Virus record (IMG/VR): IMGVR_UViG_3300014819_000003
Coordinates: 1 to 64,000 of that record
Length of the DNA stretch: 64,000 nt
Direction: 5' to 3' (one strand)
DNA from: a virus
Shown here: positions 35,808 through 46,262 of the stretch, piece by piece
How the letters are laid out: every line of letters starts with the position of its first letter
Numbering within the stretch: position 1 is the first letter of the stretch
Notes under the pieces: generated by a model
The model's input: the letters and a program-made list of their open reading frames with translations, nothing else
What the model was told of the DNA's origin: nothing
Databases searched by the model: none
Position numbers and translations under genes: made by a program

Positions 35808-36533
35808 ATGGCTACTGAGATATATAAAATAGAAAAAATAAACTTGGTTGATGGAACAGAACTTGAAATAGTTCCATTAAAAATTAAATACCTAAGAGAG
35901 TTTATGACAACATTTGATGCCATACGTGTAACAAAAAATGATCAAGAAGCAATATTAGTATTATCAGAATGTGTTAGAGTATGTATGAAACAATATCATC
36001 CATCTATATCTAAAACAATAGAAGATATTGAAGAAAATCTTGATCTTCCAACAGTATATAAAATATTAAATGTTGCTGCTGGCATTAAGGTGGATAAAAA
36101 ATCAGAAGAGCCTGTAAAAGATCAAGCAACTAATAGTGGTCCAACCTGGGAAACATTAGACTTAGCAAATTTAGAATCTGAGGTATTTTTGCTCGGTATT
36201 TGGAAAGACTATGATGAATTAGAAACTTCTATGTCTATGCCAGAACTTATGGCTACCATTTCAAGTAAGCGTGAACTAGATTATGAAGAAAAGAAGTTCT
36301 TGGCAGCAATTCAGGGAGTAGACCTAGATGCTAACTCTAAGTCATCAGATGGCAAACAGCGAGGGCAGCAAGAATGGGAAGACCTTAAAGCAAGAGTATT
36401 TAGTGGTGGTAAGGCAAGAGATGGAAATGACATTCTTGCACTTCAAGGACCTGCTGCTGAAAAGGCAGGGTTTGGTATTGGTATGGGTCTAGATTATGAT
36501 GACCTACGTGATCCTTCAATAATGAAAAATTAA
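35808..36533 (+). CDS. Tail assembly chaperone, long form (241 aa)
   Basis: A 241-residue chaperone. Residues 1-97 (VDGTELEIVPLKIKYLREFM, LDLPTVYKILNVAAGIKV) match the whole of the shorter chaperone 36584-36913. Residues 115-241 add a typical T-domain (WETLDLANLESEVFLLGIWK, SMSMPELMATISSKRELDYE, KKFLAAIQGVDLDANSK). In most siphoviruses this G-T product is made by ribosomal frameshifting; here it is one continuous gene. It should recruit the tail tube protein to the tape measure. Confidence 0.8.
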   Translation: MATEIYKIEKINLVDGTELEIVPLKIKYLREFMTTFDAIRVTKNDQEAILVLSECVRVCMKQYHPSISKTIEDIEENLDLPTVYKILNVAAGIKVDKKSEEPVKDQATNSGPTWETLDLANLESEVFLLGIWKDYDELETSMSMPELMATISSKRELDYEEKKFLAAIQGVDLDANSKSSDGKQRGQQEWEDLKARVFSGGKARDGNDILALQGPAAEKAGFGIGMGLDYDDLRDPSIMKN

Positions 36534-36583: not shown

Positions 36584-36913
36584 ATGGCAACAACAACGTA
36601 TGAGAGCCAAGAACTTTCCCTTATGGATGGTACGAAAATCACAGTGAGACCATTAAAAATCTCATTGCTTCGTCCTTTCATGACTAAGTTCGAAAAAGTG
36701 GCAGCGGTGGCAGACGATAACGAAAAGTCAATGACTCTTCTTGTCGAATGTGTGGAAATTGCTATGAAGCAGTTCAATCCAGAACTCGCTGATGTTAAGA
36801 AACTTGAGGAAGTTCTAGACCTTCCAACAGTTTATAAGATCATTGAGGCTGCTTCGGGGGTCAAACTCCAAGACGCATCTGCTTTGCTAAATGCAGCACT
36901 TGCAACAAACTAA
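36584..36913 (+). CDS. Tail assembly chaperone, short form (109 aa)
   Basis: A 109-residue paralogue of the N-terminal half of gene 35808-36533 (MDGTKITVRPLKISLLRPFM, LDLPTVYKIIEAASGVKLQD). It equals a stand-alone G protein. Strong AGGAGGA ribosome-binding site and own promoter suggest it is made in excess of the long form, as G is over G-T in lambda. The order is reversed (long gene first). No slippery heptamer or downstream T frame was found at its 3' end. Confidence 0.8.
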   Translation: MATTTYESQELSLMDGTKITVRPLKISLLRPFMTKFEKVAAVADDNEKSMTLLVECVEIAMKQFNPELADVKKLEEVLDLPTVYKIIEAASGVKLQDASALLNAALATN

Positions 36914-36938: not shown

Positions 36939-39900
36939 GTGGCTGATGTTAACGCAAATATTGGCGTACATATTGACACCTCTGCAACTATTGCTCAACT
37001 CAAGGCACTACGTGCTGAGATATCTAGATTTAATCAATCTGTAATAAAATCAAGCGCTTCTGCTGCTATAGCACAGCGTGATCTACAAACCAACCTAGTA
37101 AATGCTATAAATGCCACTGGCAAATTCCATGCCAAGATGGGCTTAATTAGAACATCTACAGAGTCCTTTACACATGCCCTTGAAACCAATAAACTTTCAA
37201 TGCGTGAGTACTTCAGGTACGCTGGCGGGGCAAGTACAACATTCCGTAAACTATTTACAAAAGAATTTGACACTATAAGTCAGGTTGCTGCAGACCGTGT
37301 AAAGAGAATGCAGACTCAATATGTTAAGTTGGGTCGTGATGCATCTGGAGCAATGAAGGCAATATCCATAACTCCTACAACCTTAAATATGAAGGACTAT
37401 GGAACTCAAGTTGCAATGGCAGCACAGAGACAGGCACTTTTAAATCAATTATTGAAACAAGGATCAACTAATCTATTAAATTTTGGTAAGAATACTCAAT
37501 GGGCTGGTCGCCAGTTGATGGTTGGTTTTACAGTTCCACTAGCCTATCTTGGAACATCAGCAGCCAAAACATTTATGGCAATTGAAGAACAGGTTATCAA
37601 ATTTAAACGTGTTTATGGTGAAATGTTTACTACTTCAGACCAAACAAATAAGGCTTTAGAGGACGTTAGAAGGCTTGCTGAAGAATTTACAAAATATGGT
37701 GTTGCTGTAGAAAAAACAATTGAACTTGCAGCAAAGGCTGCTGCTACAGGTAAGATGGGTGCAGATCTTACTGCACAGGTTGCAGAAGCAACAAGGCTTG
37801 CTGTTCTTGGTGGAGTTGAACAAGAAGAGGCTCTAGATACAACAATTTCATTAACAAATGCATTTGGAATAGCGGCTGCAGATTTAAGTAAAAAGATTGA
37901 CTTCCTTAACGCAGTAGAAAACCAAACAGTTGTATCTATTGAAGATTTAACTATTGCAGTTCCAAAGGCTGGACCAGTTATTCAGCAACTAGGCGGTAAT
38001 GTAGAAGACCTTGCATTCTTTTTAACTGCCATGAAAGAAGGTGGCATTAATGCATCTGAAGGTGCTAACGCTCTAAAGTCTGGTCTTGCATCTCTTATTA
38101 ATCCAACAGATAAAGCATCCAAAATGTTGGGTGAGTTGGGAATTAATATTAAGGGAATTGTTGAAGCAAATAAAGGAAATGTAAAAGGCGTAGTTCTTGA
38201 TTTTGCTGCAGCATTAGACACTCTTGATCCACTAAATCGTGCTCGTGCTATTGAACAATTATTTGGTAAATTCCAGTTTGCTCGTTTATCTACTTTATTT
38301 TCAAATGTTTCTAAAGAAGGAACACAGGCATCAAGGGTATTAGATTTAGCAACTGCATCAGTTGAAGAACTTGCTATTATTTCAGAACGAGAATTAAAAG
38401 CAGTAGAAGATGCTATTGGAACAAATTTTAAAGAAGCAGTTCAGCAGTTAAGACTTGCTTTAGAGCCAATAGGAAAAGAATTTTTAAAAGTTATCACCCC
38501 TATAGCACAAACCATAGCAAACCTTTTAGATAAATTTAATAATCTTGGCGACGGAACAAAGAAATTTATTGTTATTGCTACAACATTAGTAGGGGTAATA
38601 GGACCAACATTTTTGATGACATTTGGTTTGCTTGCTAACGCAGTTGCTAATATTATTAAATTATTTACAACAATGCGTGGTGGATTTTTAAGGCTTAAAG
38701 GTGGATCAGCAGTCCTTGCAGAACAAACAAATTATTTAACCAAAGAGCAAATGGAGGCAACAACTGTTGCTGCTGCTCTTGATCAAGCACATAATAGATT
38801 AACTCAAAGATTTACATCAGAGGCTGTAGCATTACAGAAACTAAGAGCAGCATTTGATAGTGCTTCTGCAGCGCAGGCAAGATTTGCTGCTACCAATCCA
38901 GGAATGATGATTCCAGGATTTAAAGGTGCAAAGAAATTTAATTTTGGAACCATGAAAGTTCCAGGGTATGCAAAAGGAACTGACACAGTACCTGCAATGC
39001 TTACACCTGGAGAAGCAGTTATTCCAGCAGACATAGCACAAGATGAAAGATTTAAACCAATCATTCAGGCACTAGTAACTGGAGATCTTCCAGGATATCA
39101 AGATGGAACTGAGGGAGTTGGTAAACAGTCTGGAAGAAAACTCAAACAAACAGTATTTTTTGATTTTGATGATACCTTGGCTAGAAGCACATCTGCTATA
39201 GAACAATGGAAAGCAGAACGTGGAATCACTGGCAAGACTACACCAGAAATGTATGATGCATTTAATAAAGATGTTGTTGCTGGAAGAAAAGTTCCAATCA
39301 TACAAGAAAATATTGATAAACTAAAAAGACTTCAGGCTGCTGGTGTTGATGTTAGAATTTTGACTGCTAGAACTGCAAATGAAACTAACTTAGAATCACT
39401 TAAAAAAGTTTTAGCATCAAATGGTGTAATAATCCAAGATAGTAAAATTCAATTAAATAATACTGGAGATACTGATGCAAAATTTAAAGCATCACATATT
39501 AAGGGCTTTTTAAAAGATAATCCAGATTCTAGAGCACAGTTAATAGATGACAAAATAGAAAATGTAAAAGCAGTAAGAGCACTAAGTTCTGCAAAAGATA
39601 TGTCTAAGAGATTTGGTGCTGTTGTTACCTCTGCTGCTGTCGAACCTGCCGAGTTTGTTAAGATGAAAGACGGAGTTCTTGGAGTTAAGTTCCAAGGAAG
39701 AACTTATCCAGTTGGAGAAAATGAAGCAAAAGCAAAAGCAGTTGTTACTAAACTCAATGATGAACTCGCTGCTCAAAAATCACAAGAAGGAAGAATTAAA
39801 ACTGCAAACTGGGCAACAAACAGATTTGGGGAACTAGTAGATGCTAGAGACAAAGGTAGATTAATAAGCACATCAAGAATTTGGCGTAAAGAACGTGGTA

Positions 39901-42900
39901 GAGGTGGAATTAATTATGTAGTTAGAAAAGCGCTAAATGATCTTGCTGGTGGAAGCAGTTATGAAAACCTAATTAAGGCTCGTCAAAATTCGGAACAAAA
40001 ACTTGTTATGCAGGCCTTGGAAGACTATCAAAAGAGGACTGGAAAAGCCTTAACACCAAAACAAATTGAGCAGGCTTTACAGATTCAAGCATCACATGTG
40101 TGGCCAAGTAAAGATGAAACAGGAAGACAACTTAAGTTTGATGATCCATTAAAATGGCAGCGTGGTCATGTATTTGATGATTTAGGAATTCTTAATAATT
40201 ATTTGAATAGAACTGGAACAACTAGAACTGGTCAGCCTACAGCATTTCAGAAAGTTGCAGATGCATTTTTACAAGATGATGAATTTACTAAACAATCTGG
40301 ATTAAATAAACAACAACTTTATAAAGATTTAGAATGGGCTAGACAAAATAAACAACCAACAACAATGCAGGAACTGCAATCTATCAAGAGATTAGCAGAA
40401 CTTGATCAAATAATGAGTAATGCTGGAGTTTATACAAATAAGTCAGTAATTGATAGACTTGGTATTCGTGGAGTTGGAAACTTACAGTCACTAGCGAATG
40501 GTATTTATCAAGCAGAAGTGTCTGGTAAATTAGTTGCTGCTCGTGGTCCAGAATGGGCTAAAGGACTTGCAGCGAGAATATTAGATTTAGCAAGTATGAA
40601 ATCTGTAGCAAAAGGTGGAGCACCATTAGCAGAATATGATTTTGCTGTTGCTAGAGGAGAAAGAATAAAATCAACTGCTGGATCACGTACAGTAACAGGT
40701 GCAACTGGAAGAAAGAAACCAGCATCTACTAAGGCTGTAGGTCCTTCGGCTGGTCCAAAAGATACCAGATTGATTACATCAAAAGGCGTAAAGTCTATTA
40801 CTCCAGTAAGAGTTGGTCGTTTTGCTTATGGAGCAGAGGGTGGATTTGGAGATCAACGTGTTGCTGGTTCAACTACCGCTCAAGAAATAGCAAGAGAACG
40901 AAGAATAAGTCTTAATGAAGCAAAGAAACTTCTTGCACAAGAAAGAAAACTTGCTGAGGCAAGAGCAGCGGGTACTGACGTAACAGAAGAATCTGGTAAA
41001 GCAACATCTCAAAAAACTGAACTAGATAAAAAACAATTACAGCAGATGAGATATGAAAGAGTTTCTAGAATATCATCTCCAGTTGCAATGGCATCTGGAA
41101 CTGCAGTTATGGCTGGAGCAATGATGGGAGCGCCAGAAGGATTTACAAAAATGATGCTAGGCGTTTCTGTTATTTCTTCAATCCTACCATTAATGACAAA
41201 TCCATGGATGCTTGCAATTGCTGCAGTTGTAGGTACTGGTGCATTATTATTAAAATTTAATAATGATATAAAGAAGGCAAGAGAAGCAGGCATAAATCTT
41301 GCCAAAGCAATGACAATGAGTGCTGATGATGTAAAAGAATTAAGCATGATGACTGGAAAACCTAGTGCGTCAGAAATTGCAGATAGACGTAGAAAAAATA
41401 TTCTTGGTGGTGGAATAACAGAGCCACAACGTCAATTTGGTCAAAATGTTTTAGAAAGTGAATTTGGTAAAAAATTATTGGCTGATGTTCAAACATTGTC
41501 TAAAACTGGAATGCAGCCAAAAGATGTTGCAAAAAATATTTCTACACAGTTAGGGCAAGCAGTTCTTCAAGGAGTAATAACTATGAAAGAAGCAGCAAGT
41601 ATTGCTTCTGCTCTTGGAGAAAAATTAGGAAGTTATGAAATACCATTAAATATTACTGGTAATTTAAATCAAATATTTGGTCCAAATGGAGAAAATTTAA
41701 AAACAGATCCATTAAGAATTGCTTTAGAAATTAAAAAAGATTCAATAAATACACAAGCACAAGCATTTCAACAAGCAATAGCAAATAGAAAACCAACAGT
41801 TGGCCTTGGTGCAGCACAAACTATTGGTGGTGCTACTGCTGCTGGTGCTGCAATTGGAGCAGGAATTGGTGCATTTGGAGGTCCATTTGCTCCAGTTACT
41901 GCCACTGGTGGTGCTGCTATTGGTGCTGTGGTTGGTGCAATTGGCGGTACTGGTGCAGCAATTATTAATGAAGGTGATAAAGCAAAAAATGCAAAGTTAG
42001 ATGCGGCAGCACTTCAGTTAGGTATTGAACTTGTAGCACAAAACCAAGATCTTGTAGACTCACTTAATCAACAATATGATGTCAAAGTTAAACAGGCCAA
42101 GACAACTGCAGAAATAGATGCTATAGAAAAAGAACGTAAAGCAGCGGTAGATAGACTAAATGCAGAAAATACAAAAACACTACAGTTGTTGATTGAACAA
42201 AGAAAACAAATGGGCGACGGTACATTTAATGCTGCTATTAAGGCTGCAGCAGATGCAATGTATAAAGAAGGCCCAATGGCTGTTTTCAAAGATCAGGCAC
42301 TAGAAGCATTAAATTCTTTAGAGAGTTCAGATTTTAAAGCACAACTACAACTTGGTTTTGCATCTGGAGATATAGATCCGCTTACATTAACAAATATATT
42401 AAACCTATCTGCACAAAATAAACCTATACAGCAAGATATACAATTTTTAATTAATACAGAAGGTTTTGCAGACATGGCCGTGCTTACGCAACTTCTTAAC
42501 TCAGTTGCTATTGATCCAAAAACAGGAAAAGCAGACCCACTAGTTTTTCAAACTATTTTAAGTTATATAAATAAAAATGAACAAACTTTTGATGAAGATC
42601 TTGAGGCAGTTCGTCGTATTGCTGATTTTAAAGGTGCATACAACGTAACACTAGACGCAAAAACAAATGGTATTGAAAAACTTCAAATTGCTACAACAGC
42701 ATTAAAACAAATTGAAGATCTTCCAGAAAAAGTTACTAAACAAGCACTTATTGATGCAAATACAAACGGACAGTTTAATGATATTATTGCAAACTGGTCA
42801 GCACTTTCTCAAGGTAAAGATTTAATTAATAAAAATCTTATAGTAAATTATAAAGTCGGTGCAATAGATCCAAATTTGCAAAATGCTGCTAAGGCTGCAA

Positions 42901-45900
42901 ACCAAAGTGTTCCAGAATTTTTGGCTAAAGGGTTTGTTGCTCCAACACCAACTAATATTCCGCCAACAGAAACTCCTGGGCCTAAAAAGGGTAGAGATAC
43001 AACACTTGATGAATTATTAAAAAGACTTAAGTTTATTCGCAAAGCATCTATTGATGCACAAGGAGGAGTAAAAGAACTAGAAAGAATAACTGCTGGCAAA
43101 GGACTTACCAAGTTTAATGGAGTAGTACAACAACTTGCTGCTGGTCCAAAAGGTGGTTTTAATAGAGAGTTTATTTCATTCCTTGAGGGAATGGATAATG
43201 CAACTCGTAAAACATACATGACCATTAAAAATGGACAGGTCATTCTTACTAAACAAGGCAAGGCACTCAAAGAAGCATTTAATGAAAAAGTAATAGGTGA
43301 ATATCAAGTAGCACAGTTCCAAGCAGTTCAGGATACTAAGGCTCAGGGTGCAGCACTTGCTAAATTACGTGCTGCTGGAATTGATTCTGCCACCGCTCTT
43401 GAAATGGTCGCTGACGCTAATCTTGCAGTAGCAATAAATAGCAAAAATATTTCATCTGCAGAACTTAAGAATATGGCTACACAAGCCCAGGAAGCAAAAG
43501 ATAAAGTAAGAGAACTAAATCTTGAACTTCAAGGAACTGTTACAACAATGGTTGGTCGTGGTCAAGAACTAGATGAAACAATTAAAGTTATATCAAGAAT
43601 AAAAGAAATAAATCCAAATGTTTCTTCTGAATTCCTACAGGCTCTTGCTTCTGATAAAACTGCTGTTCAAGGTTTTTATGATGCATTTTTCAAAGGTGCA
43701 CAAAATAATGTACCTAATCTAAAAGATTATATAGATACATACTTTAAGAATAATCAATTAGAAGTAACTCTTAAAGGTATTTTAGATCCACAAGAACTTG
43801 TAAGACAGGCTCAAGAAGCATTTGATAAAGCATCATCTACTATTGATAAATATCTAAGTGCACAAAGAGCACAGGCAACTCTTCAGGTTGCACCACCAAC
43901 ACTAATGAATGAACTAGGTAGAAATCTACAAGTTGCACAAGATACATTAGTAGAAGCAGAAACAAATCTACAAAATATAAAGGATGCAACTGGAAGAACT
44001 ATAACAAACTATCAGTCCGAAATAGATGCCCTAAGACGAGAACTTGATGCTGGACTAGAAATAGAAATCAGAAAACTTACTGAACAGATAAAGGCTGAAC
44101 AGGATAAGATTGCTGCAGAATATGACAAGCCAATTGAAGGTCTTCGTAAGAACATTGAAAAAATTCAAAGAGATATTGAGATTAATTTTACAAGACCAAT
44201 TGAAGAGTTAAATAATCAAATTGATGATATTCAGCGAGGTATAGAACTAAACTTTGATCGTCCAATTGCTACACTACAAGAAGAATCATCTGACCTATCT
44301 AATGAATTAACCTTGATGGATAAGGTTGCAGAGTCTATAAATAAGAAATATGATGAACAAGCAGCAGCCTTGCAAAAAGTTGCAGATATTAATCAAGAAA
44401 TATCTGATCAACAAAAGGGACAATTAGATCTTGCTGGTGCATTAAGCCGTGGAGATGTTGCTGCTGCTGCTCAGGCTGCACAAGAGATGAGAGCACAGGC
44501 AGCGGCACGTGCAAAAGAACGAGCATCTGGAGTAATAGAAGCAGCAAGACAGGCAGAACTTGGAGGACTACGTTCTGCTACTGGAATGACCAGAGCACAA
44601 ATAGAAGAACGTCAGTTCCAAATTAGCCAACAAATATTCCAACTTGAAGAACAAAAAGAAGCACAGTTAACTAAAGTAACTGAACTTCAAGATCAAATTT
44701 ATGCTAAAACACAACTTCTTGAAGTTGAACAACGTAAGATTCGTGACCTTGAAGACCAGATTTATGCAAAAGAAGTTGCACGTCAAGCAGCACTAGATGC
44801 CTTAATTCCAAAGCAAGAACTATTAACAGATTTGGAAAAGAAACGTGCTGCCGCTCTTGAAAAGATTGCAGAAAAAGAAGATGCTATATCAAAAATTAAA
44901 AACTCACAAGCATATAAAGATGCTGAAAAGGCTGTTGCAGATGCTCAAAAGGCTGTAGATGCTGCTCAAAAGAAACTTGATGATATTGAAAAGAAATTAA
45001 GAGATGCGCTTGCTAAAGTTGATGCACAACAAGCAAAATGGGACGATATTAAACTTGGTATTGAAGGTGCTCAAGGCGCTGTAAAAGACTTTGATGCAGA
45101 GTTAGCAAATGCAAAAATAGCAGCAGATAAATTAGCAAAGGCAATTGCTAGTGTTGTTTCTGCAGATGCAAACATTACTGGCGCTGATGTATTTGGAAAT
45201 GGTTTAGGTACAAGTACGGTTACAGATGAATATGGATTAGATCCAAAAGATCCAGACTATCAAGAAAAACGTAGAGCAAGACAGGGTATTGGAATGGGTG
45301 CAGGTACAAAAACTGCAACAAAAGAAACTGCAACAAAGGCTCTTGCAACCAACCTTAATTCAGCAGCAACTTCTGCTACAGTTGTTCAAACAGCACTAGG
45401 AAAAATAGCAGAACTATCTAAACTTTCTGCTGTAGATCAAGAAAAGATTGCAACCTCTATTGTAAAACAGGCAGAACAGTCTGGACTGTTAAAGAGTGCA
45501 GAAGAAGCAATAACTCAGTTTATTAAAGATCAGGTGACCCCATCAGAACAAATAGCAACTAATACTAAGAATATGCTTGATTCTTTAGTTGCTGCAATAG
45601 TACCAGCCAATACAATTGCTGGAATATTTAATTCAATTTTAAGCACTGCAAATGCAATTTATCAAAGAATCTTAAGTTGGAATACAACAGTAACAACAGT
45701 ACATAATATTATAGAAAATGTAACAAGAAACATTACAGAATATATAACACAAATAATTAAACAAGTAGTTGATACTGGTCCAGGTAAGATGTATGGTGGA
45801 AAGATTACTGGATACATGGGTGGAGGTATGGTAAAGCCAATGTATCTTGCTGGTGGTGGCGCTATTGGATCTGATACCGTGCCAGCGATGCTAACTCCTG

Positions 45901-46262
45901 GTGAGTTTGTTGTTAATAAAGCATCTTCACAAGCATTTGCTCCTTTCTTAACAGCAATTAATGAAAGTAAATATCCTTCAATTTTGGCTAAAAATATATC
46001 AAATGCTAGACCAATATATCAAATTCCAATACAAACATCTTTATCTCAGCCATCATATGATATATCCTCTCCAGTATTTAGTGCATCTCCAACAAATATT
46101 GCAAATGCTGCCTATAACGATAACTCCAGTTCAGTGTATAATTATAGTGTTGGAATTAGTGTTGGTGGAACAAATGCTTCTCCAGATACAATAGCAAAGG
46201 CAGTAATGAACGAAATTAAATATCTAGACTCTCAGCGAGTTAAAAGTCAGAAGGTTTCATAA
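36939..46262 (+). CDS. Tape measure protein with inserted HAD domain (3107 aa)
   Basis: The GTG start at 36939 follows GAGAGGTG. The protein sets tail length; at about 1.5 angstrom per residue it would imply a tail up to about 450 nm. Features: helical N-terminus; hydrophobic segments near residues 543-580, 1380-1438 and 1627-1670; two copies of the TVPAMLTPGE motif (about 680 and 2976); and long coiled coils (about 2340-2720). Residues about 735-890 form a HAD phosphatase-like insertion with D742-x-D744-x-T746, T809, K848 or K850, and D870-D871. A further unknown soluble region (about 890-1290) follows. Confidence 0.9.
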   Translation: MADVNANIGVHIDTSATIAQLKALRAEISRFNQSVIKSSASAAIAQRDLQTNLVNAINATGKFHAKMGLIRTSTESFTHALETNKLSMREYFRYAGGASTTFRKLFTKEFDTISQVAADRVKRMQTQYVKLGRDASGAMKAISITPTTLNMKDYGTQVAMAAQRQALLNQLLKQGSTNLLNFGKNTQWAGRQLMVGFTVPLAYLGTSAAKTFMAIEEQVIKFKRVYGEMFTTSDQTNKALEDVRRLAEEFTKYGVAVEKTIELAAKAAATGKMGADLTAQVAEATRLAVLGGVEQEEALDTTISLTNAFGIAAADLSKKIDFLNAVENQTVVSIEDLTIAVPKAGPVIQQLGGNVEDLAFFLTAMKEGGINASEGANALKSGLASLINPTDKASKMLGELGINIKGIVEANKGNVKGVVLDFAAALDTLDPLNRARAIEQLFGKFQFARLSTLFSNVSKEGTQASRVLDLATASVEELAIISERELKAVEDAIGTNFKEAVQQLRLALEPIGKEFLKVITPIAQTIANLLDKFNNLGDGTKKFIVIATTLVGVIGPTFLMTFGLLANAVANIIKLFTTMRGGFLRLKGGSAVLAEQTNYLTKEQMEATTVAAALDQAHNRLTQRFTSEAVALQKLRAAFDSASAAQARFAATNPGMMIPGFKGAKKFNFGTMKVPGYAKGTDTVPAMLTPGEAVIPADIAQDERFKPIIQALVTGDLPGYQDGTEGVGKQSGRKLKQTVFFDFDDTLARSTSAIEQWKAERGITGKTTPEMYDAFNKDVVAGRKVPIIQENIDKLKRLQAAGVDVRILTARTANETNLESLKKVLASNGVIIQDSKIQLNNTGDTDAKFKASHIKGFLKDNPDSRAQLIDDKIENVKAVRALSSAKDMSKRFGAVVTSAAVEPAEFVKMKDGVLGVKFQGRTYPVGENEAKAKAVVTKLNDELAAQKSQEGRIKTANWATNRFGELVDARDKGRLISTSRIWRKERGRGGINYVVRKALNDLAGGSSYENLIKARQNSEQKLVMQALEDYQKRTGKALTPKQIEQALQIQASHVWPSKDETGRQLKFDDPLKWQRGHVFDDLGILNNYLNRTGTTRTGQPTAFQKVADAFLQDDEFTKQSGLNKQQLYKDLEWARQNKQPTTMQELQSIKRLAELDQIMSNAGVYTNKSVIDRLGIRGVGNLQSLANGIYQAEVSGKLVAARGPEWAKGLAARILDLASMKSVAKGGAPLAEYDFAVARGERIKSTAGSRTVTGATGRKKPASTKAVGPSAGPKDTRLITSKGVKSITPVRVGRFAYGAEGGFGDQRVAGSTTAQEIARERRISLNEAKKLLAQERKLAEARAAGTDVTEESGKATSQKTELDKKQLQQMRYERVSRISSPVAMASGTAVMAGAMMGAPEGFTKMMLGVSVISSILPLMTNPWMLAIAAVVGTGALLLKFNNDIKKAREAGINLAKAMTMSADDVKELSMMTGKPSASEIADRRRKNILGGGITEPQRQFGQNVLESEFGKKLLADVQTLSKTGMQPKDVAKNISTQLGQAVLQGVITMKEAASIASALGEKLGSYEIPLNITGNLNQIFGPNGENLKTDPLRIALEIKKDSINTQAQAFQQAIANRKPTVGLGAAQTIGGATAAGAAIGAGIGAFGGPFAPVTATGGAAIGAVVGAIGGTGAAIINEGDKAKNAKLDAAALQLGIELVAQNQDLVDSLNQQYDVKVKQAKTTAEIDAIEKERKAAVDRLNAENTKTLQLLIEQRKQMGDGTFNAAIKAAADAMYKEGPMAVFKDQALEALNSLESSDFKAQLQLGFASGDIDPLTLTNILNLSAQNKPIQQDIQFLINTEGFADMAVLTQLLNSVAIDPKTGKADPLVFQTILSYINKNEQTFDEDLEAVRRIADFKGAYNVTLDAKTNGIEKLQIATTALKQIEDLPEKVTKQALIDANTNGQFNDIIANWSALSQGKDLINKNLIVNYKVGAIDPNLQNAAKAANQSVPEFLAKGFVAPTPTNIPPTETPGPKKGRDTTLDELLKRLKFIRKASIDAQGGVKELERITAGKGLTKFNGVVQQLAAGPKGGFNREFISFLEGMDNATRKTYMTIKNGQVILTKQGKALKEAFNEKVIGEYQVAQFQAVQDTKAQGAALAKLRAAGIDSATALEMVADANLAVAINSKNISSAELKNMATQAQEAKDKVRELNLELQGTVTTMVGRGQELDETIKVISRIKEINPNVSSEFLQALASDKTAVQGFYDAFFKGAQNNVPNLKDYIDTYFKNNQLEVTLKGILDPQELVRQAQEAFDKASSTIDKYLSAQRAQATLQVAPPTLMNELGRNLQVAQDTLVEAETNLQNIKDATGRTITNYQSEIDALRRELDAGLEIEIRKLTEQIKAEQDKIAAEYDKPIEGLRKNIEKIQRDIEINFTRPIEELNNQIDDIQRGIELNFDRPIATLQEESSDLSNELTLMDKVAESINKKYDEQAAALQKVADINQEISDQQKGQLDLAGALSRGDVAAAAQAAQEMRAQAAARAKERASGVIEAARQAELGGLRSATGMTRAQIEERQFQISQQIFQLEEQKEAQLTKVTELQDQIYAKTQLLEVEQRKIRDLEDQIYAKEVARQAALDALIPKQELLTDLEKKRAAALEKIAEKEDAISKIKNSQAYKDAEKAVADAQKAVDAAQKKLDDIEKKLRDALAKVDAQQAKWDDIKLGIEGAQGAVKDFDAELANAKIAADKLAKAIASVVSADANITGADVFGNGLGTSTVTDEYGLDPKDPDYQEKRRARQGIGMGAGTKTATKETATKALATNLNSAATSATVVQTALGKIAELSKLSAVDQEKIATSIVKQAEQSGLLKSAEEAITQFIKDQVTPSEQIATNTKNMLDSLVAAIVPANTIAGIFNSILSTANAIYQRILSWNTTVTTVHNIIENVTRNITEYITQIIKQVVDTGPGKMYGGKITGYMGGGMVKPMYLAGGGAIGSDTVPAMLTPGEFVVNKASSQAFAPFLTAINESKYPSILAKNISNARPIYQIPIQTSLSQPSYDISSPVFSASPTNIANAAYNDNSSSVYNYSVGISVGGTNASPDTIAKAVMNEIKYLDSQRVKSQKVS

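Follow-up and report, generated by a model that had tools for sequence, protein, structure and literature searches.

A HAD phosphatase-type domain in an exchangeable zone of a phage tape measure protein

The tape measure protein and its HAD domain

The window, i.e., the whole stretch of 64,000 nucleotides analyzed here, comes from a 91-kb IMG/VR virus record. It encodes a tape measure protein (TMP), recognized as such by its PhageMin_Tail domain and by the position of the long reading frame within a tail module, and the N-terminus of the protein matches several PHROG TMP families in profile searches. The surrounding tail module includes an Ig-domain protein upstream and minor tail protein profiles downstream, and Stanwilliamsviridae phages of Streptomyces show the same annotated order of major tail protein, tail assembly chaperone(s), TMP and minor tail proteins. 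Two adjacent genes just upstream of the TMP gene (35808-36533 and 36584-36913) both match phrog_10504, which looks like a duplication of the gene that occupies the place of the tail assembly chaperone. The features of the TMP gene are listed below.

36939-46262, plus strand: TMP reading frame, 3107 aa, GTG start and no internal stop; PhageMin_Tail and PHROG TMP families
37677-38267, plus strand: PhageMin_Tail domain, residues 247-443 (E 9.6e-26, 91 bits against a cut-off of 33)
38559-38669, plus strand: hydrophobic segment upstream of the cargo zone, residues 541-577 (Kyte-Doolittle scan)
38985-39110, plus strand: conserved junction from TVPAMLTPGE (683-692) to PGYQDGT (724), the last part common to relatives before the cargo zone
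39138-39593, plus strand: HAD phosphatase-type domain, residues about 734-885 (profiles, predicted fold, conserved motifs)
39162-39176, plus strand: HAD motif I, DFDDT, residues 742-746, with D742 as nucleophile and D744 as acid/base (19 of 19 TMP-HADs)
39357-39371, plus strand: HAD motif II, ILTAR, residues 807-811, with T809 (Thr in 18 and Ser in 1 of 19)
39486-39488, plus strand: HAD motif III, K850 (19 of 19)
39540-39551, plus strand: HAD motif IV, LIDD, residues 868-871, with D870/D871 (19 of 19)
40059-40526, plus strand: SH module, the core cargo module beside the HAD domain, residues 1041-1196, with invariant S-H, W, Y-x-N, P, QA and R
41181-41261, plus strand: hydrophobic segment downstream of the cargo zone, residues 1415-1441 (Kyte-Doolittle scan)
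45876-45905, plus strand: second TVPAMLTPGE motif, residues 2980-2989 (motif position)

The original prediction, made from the letters alone, placed a HAD domain at residues about 735-890 of the TMP, and profile comparison locates it at about 734-885. The best profile is phrog_415 (polynucleotide kinase), which matches residues 734-881 with an E-value of 6e-14 when all 3107 aa are searched, 1e-15 for the HAD piece alone, 3.5e-17 in the search of the 91-kb record and 9e-18 for the homologous piece of the relative L003. Judged by these profile scores, the match is far above chance level. Single Pfam HAD models stay below threshold in this region (E 1e-4 to 0.2), and we therefore regard the domain as a divergent family. 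The class B/C acid phosphatase model PF03767 (22.2 bits against a cut-off of 27, E 1e-4) and the Swiss Army Knife RNA-repair HAD model PF18143 (17.9 bits against 27.5) both miss their gathering scores, and the PNKP 3'-phosphatase family is matched significantly (phrog_415, E 6e-14 to 9e-18). As neither Pfam nor PHROGs gives a kinase profile in the TMP of the window, the domain is classed as PNKP-phosphatase-like and not as Pnkp. A PDB sequence search with the HAD domain gave no meaningful match.

All the motifs of the HAD superfamily are present, i.e., DxDx[TV] in motif I, Ser/Thr in motif II, Lys in motif III and an acidic pair in motif IV. DFDDT, ILTAR with T809, and IDD at 870-871 lie exactly where they had been predicted. 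For motif III, residue 848 or 850 had been proposed; of the two, the motif III Lys is the invariant K850, while position 848 is Lys in just 14 of 19 sequences. The domain follows the first of two TVPAMLTPGE copies, which are 2297 residues apart, in agreement with the expected distance of about 2300.

A missing Rossmann-like core had been named beforehand as grounds for refuting the domain, and this core is present in the predicted structure. The AlphaFold (AF2) model, built from a three-sequence alignment, has a pLDDT of 82 and the alternating strands and helices of the HAD core, while the helices that separate motif I from motif II are a possible small cap. Foldseek aligns the model to HAD folds with a probability of 1.00 and a best E-value of 1.7e-4, and TM-scores against the PDB are modest (0.4-0.58). 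A plant vegetative storage protein, itself of acid-phosphatase fold, leads the PDB matches together with class C acid phosphatases; phosphoserine phosphatase and the Lem4 HAD are further matches, and Pnkp1/Rnl/Hen1 and T4 Pnkp come at ranks 37-38. The viral models that score best are those of a phage acid phosphatase and of several PNKP phosphatase domains. The profile and structure comparison suggested for this region thus gives both a phrog_415 match and a predicted Rossmannoid model, and the branches closest to the domain are the PNKP 3'-phosphatases and the class B/C acid phosphatases/nucleotidases.

Recurrence of the HAD domain and exchange of modules

A search for the HAD domain in related TMPs had been suggested, and 19 distinct TMP-HAD sequences were found on 25 contigs in at least two TMP lineages. 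Since the insert is in frame across these 25 contigs, an assembly or frame artefact was rejected. D742, D744, T746, R811, K850, D870 and D871 are invariant in all 19 sequences, some of which share merely 33-39% identity, and loss of the catalytic Asp in relatives, which would have spoken against an enzyme, is not seen in any of the 19. Between the window and L002, dN/dS is 0.14 for the HAD domain and for the downstream structural part of the TMP, and 0.43 for the SH module together with the stretch between HAD and SH. By this substitution measure the HAD domain is under strong purifying selection, and the low ratio together with the retained catalytic residues argues for a working enzyme. No HAD homologs were found by tblastn in 50,697 annotated phage records, and genome contigs gave no match to either the HAD domain or the TMP N-terminus.

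In the lineage of the window, a scan with TMP residues 1-682 gave 80 TMPs that are about 70-80% identical up to residue ~724 and divergent beyond. The cargo zone was surveyed with seed-built, iterated HMMs in the 76 TMPs that reach it, i.e., the window, L002 and 74 others. Each carries exactly one of the mutually exclusive modules SH, FGHA and HVG, which some follow with an optional kinase-like module (KIN). Before this module, HAD is found in three of the 76 TMPs and an ART-like module in one (L075). Because it is so rare, the HAD domain is taken to be dispensable in this lineage. Its carriers are the window, L003 and L002, the last on a contig without the TMP N-terminus (HAD 80-83% identical). 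On the N-terminal tree the module class changes 17 times, with a possible minimum of 6 and a mean of 31 after shuffling, from which we conclude that the cargo zone has been exchanged while the scaffold was kept. A single gain suffices for HAD on the same tree, and from these sequences it probably entered the lineage once. A purely vertical history of the whole cargo zone was rejected on account of the module exchange on this tree. Four cultured Streptomyces relatives (Stanwilliamsviridae or kin), with TMPs of ~2100 aa, lack all six modules, HAD included.

SH, FGHA and HVG appear mutually unrelated and have no family match, and no TMP that reaches the zone is without one of the three. The SH module has no homologs in the 50,697 annotated phage records (tblastn), its profile gives nothing meaningful against PDB sequences, and its model has no match in the fold search; the predicted secondary structure gives the impression of a beta-beta-alpha nuclease. 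A single-sequence search of viral contigs found no relatives of the region after HAD. Pfam gave no significant match to the KIN, FGHA, HVG and L075 ART-like pieces, and these labels, like PD-(D/E)XK-like, are motif-based. The L075 TMP contains two nearly tandem copies of GLVNLPGYFEEFKNKLKTDLFKDLKLSPNEIKEKRRKENDKQLKNF that precede both the ART-like module and the second TPGE-like linker.

The HAD domain is also found outside this lineage. A DNA scan for FDFDDTLA led to L167, a different TMP (PhageMin_Tail, E 1e-23) with HAD at residues 1058-1202 and an ADP-ribosyltransferase (ART) that scores above the Pfam cut-off for ADPrib_exo_Tox. A search with the ART and HAD stretch of L167 gave the giant TMPs L205-L208, and scanning with the L205 and L207 HADs then gave 21 loci. 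At all of these the HAD lies in a large reading frame with TPGE and/or xAxGG linkers, and those tested are TMPs by Pfam or PHROGs. In the giant relatives (3-5.7 kaa) HAD occurs with a PD-(D/E)XK-like module (REX), often together with ART. REX is motif-based, shows an E...DFP...(D/E)xK pattern, and usually comes after HAD. The module order is shuffled: HAD-REX-ART in L205 and L207, REX-ART-HAD in L167, ART-REX in L208, and ART-HAD-REX in L217 and L223. L208 has a degenerate-looking HAD-like stretch below HMM detection. The giant TMPs L205-L232 reach 5741 aa and have multiple TPGE/xAxGG linkers flanking their modules, and such linkers may mark the module borders.

Possible delivery and function of the domain

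Our main reading, to which we give a probability of roughly 55%, is that the HAD domain works as a catalytic phosphatase that the tail delivers as exchangeable cargo and that probably acts on the ends of nucleic acids or on nucleotides, which would blunt host defence or help the phage to take over. Siphophage entry brings the TMP to the host membrane as one of the first phage proteins. It would be held in the tail tube and be ejected first, and the hydrophobic segments 541-577 and 1415-1441 would insert into the host membrane. The HAD cargo lies between these two segments, and would thus be exposed where the DNA channel opens into the cytoplasm; there the domain could fold and be active at once. 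We infer this ejection and exposure from general TMP biology. In the case of lambda, labelling from the inner-membrane protein ManZ of E. coli marks the TMP during injection, and the nuclease SNIPE binds it there (PMC13190303). TMPs have been proposed to form membrane channels (PMC11126660), and contractile injection systems have TMP-like effectors with nucleases at the C-terminus (PMC11126660; PMC13277306). What speaks against delivery is that a domain of 150 aa may have to pass the narrow tube unfolded.

The substrate and the benefit to the phage are proposed less firmly. The domain would most likely strip cleaved nucleic acid of 3'-phosphates or other end phosphates, or nucleotides of phosphate, so that host defence would be blunted, or take-over aided, at entry. 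Such a role fits the nearest families, i.e., PNKP phosphatases and class B/C acid phosphatases. No RNA ligase turned up in the 91-kb record, and hence no full Pnkp/ligase repair pathway is seen there.

Class B/C acid phosphatases are secreted or envelope enzymes. As they provide the best PDB folds, the domain could instead act in the envelope during passage of the TMP through the wall, with teichoic-acid, undecaprenyl or other cell-wall phosphates as substrates. Some actinophage TMPs do contain peptidoglycan hydrolase motifs (Piuri and Hatfull, 2006, as cited in PMC13277306). However, the sequence profiles point to phage PNKP-type phosphatases, and the partner modules ART and PD-(D/E)XK-like usually have cytoplasmic targets, which makes action in the envelope unlikely. 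An inert folded spacer or plug that needs no catalysis would agree with the length variation that TMPs tolerate and with the lack of HAD in the ~2100-aa TMPs of the four cultured Streptomyces relatives, but it would hardly account for catalytic residues kept unchanged in 19 sequences, of which some share no more than 33-39% identity, or for the strong purifying selection, and we find it quite improbable.

The TMP is a late product of the producing cell, and the domain might work there, before or during tail assembly, e.g., as a fragment from TMP cleavage, and not in the next host. The cargo is, however, internal, between conserved parts of the TMP, and for this reason it should end up in the virion if it is not cut out beforehand. 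The 91-kb record does not encode a standalone HAD copy either, and a role in the producing cell is quite improbable. It is equally hard to favor a set of toxins against hosts or competitors in which HAD would not be a protective enzyme. The companion modules in relatives (ART and nuclease-like) resemble polymorphic-toxin domains and TMP-like effectors of injection systems are toxic on expression in E. coli, yet HAD phosphatases are rarely toxins.

Returning to delivered cargo, a wider proposal sees general effector carriers in the TMPs of at least two lineages: an exchange site just after TPGE/xAxGG linkers would be loaded by recombination (HAD, ART, PD-(D/E)XK-like, SH and kinase-like modules), and this cargo would be displayed on the cytoplasmic side of the DNA channel to counter host defence at injection. 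We put this forward tentatively, at somewhat less than even odds.

Relation to known systems

Enzymes inside TMPs and TMP-like effectors are already known; new, as far as we found, are phage TMPs whose interchangeable cargo zone includes a HAD phosphatase. The original prediction held that a complete phosphatase-type domain in a TMP was not known to be established, and no such fusion was found in the literature searched for HAD, phosphatase or haloacid dehalogenase in TMPs, a set with few subscription papers and no bioRxiv preprints. The domain resembles the PNKP-type HAD 3'-phosphatases of phages (T4 Pnkp/phrog_415) in its best profile, in its fold (T4 Pnkp is at rank 38, and phage PNKP phosphatases match as well) and in the four HAD motifs, but it is built into a tail protein and has no kinase domain. 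Class B/C acid phosphatases (HAD subfamily IIIB, PF03767) give the best PDB folds and a weak Pfam match below cut-off, whereas they are standalone secreted enzymes with 14-19% identity to the TMP HAD. TMPs with muralytic domains, as in mycobacteriophage TM4, also have an enzyme motif within the TMP. There, however, peptidoglycan is cut, while the lineage of the window has a phosphatase and non-muralytic modules in an exchange zone.

The effectors Tme and Sle1 of Streptomyces contractile injection systems likewise combine a TMP-like scaffold with variable effector domains, one of which is an active nuclease (PMC11126660; PMC13277306). These are bacterial contractile systems with C-terminal effectors, in contrast to the internal cargo of a phage TMP. 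Polyvalent proteins of phages and conjugative elements are multi-domain proteins with ART, kinase and nuclease modules that are thought to be co-injected with DNA (PMC5512222). The TMPs have several modules per protein, which may be injected, and the carrier in the window is a structural TMP. The main text of the polyvalent-protein survey (PMC5512222) contains neither "tape measure" nor "phosphatase".

The results suggest that some phages deliver enzymes into the cell via the TMP alongside the DNA. Enzyme modules built into the TMP would supply a defence or take-over function ahead of any phage gene expression, and a swappable cargo zone would partly explain the large variation in TMP length. 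A TMP with such a zone would be a natural protein-delivery scaffold, with payloads that sequence reveals and that lend themselves to testing one module at a time.

In the FDFDDTLA pattern scan of IMG/VR, 68 of 120 reading frames were at least 1000 aa long, many of them 2000-3400 aa. L084, L090, L120, L123, L124, L195 and others belong here. Those tested other than L167 had no TMP profile, and some, such as L195, have an AAA_33/zeta-toxin-like kinase inserted within the HAD.
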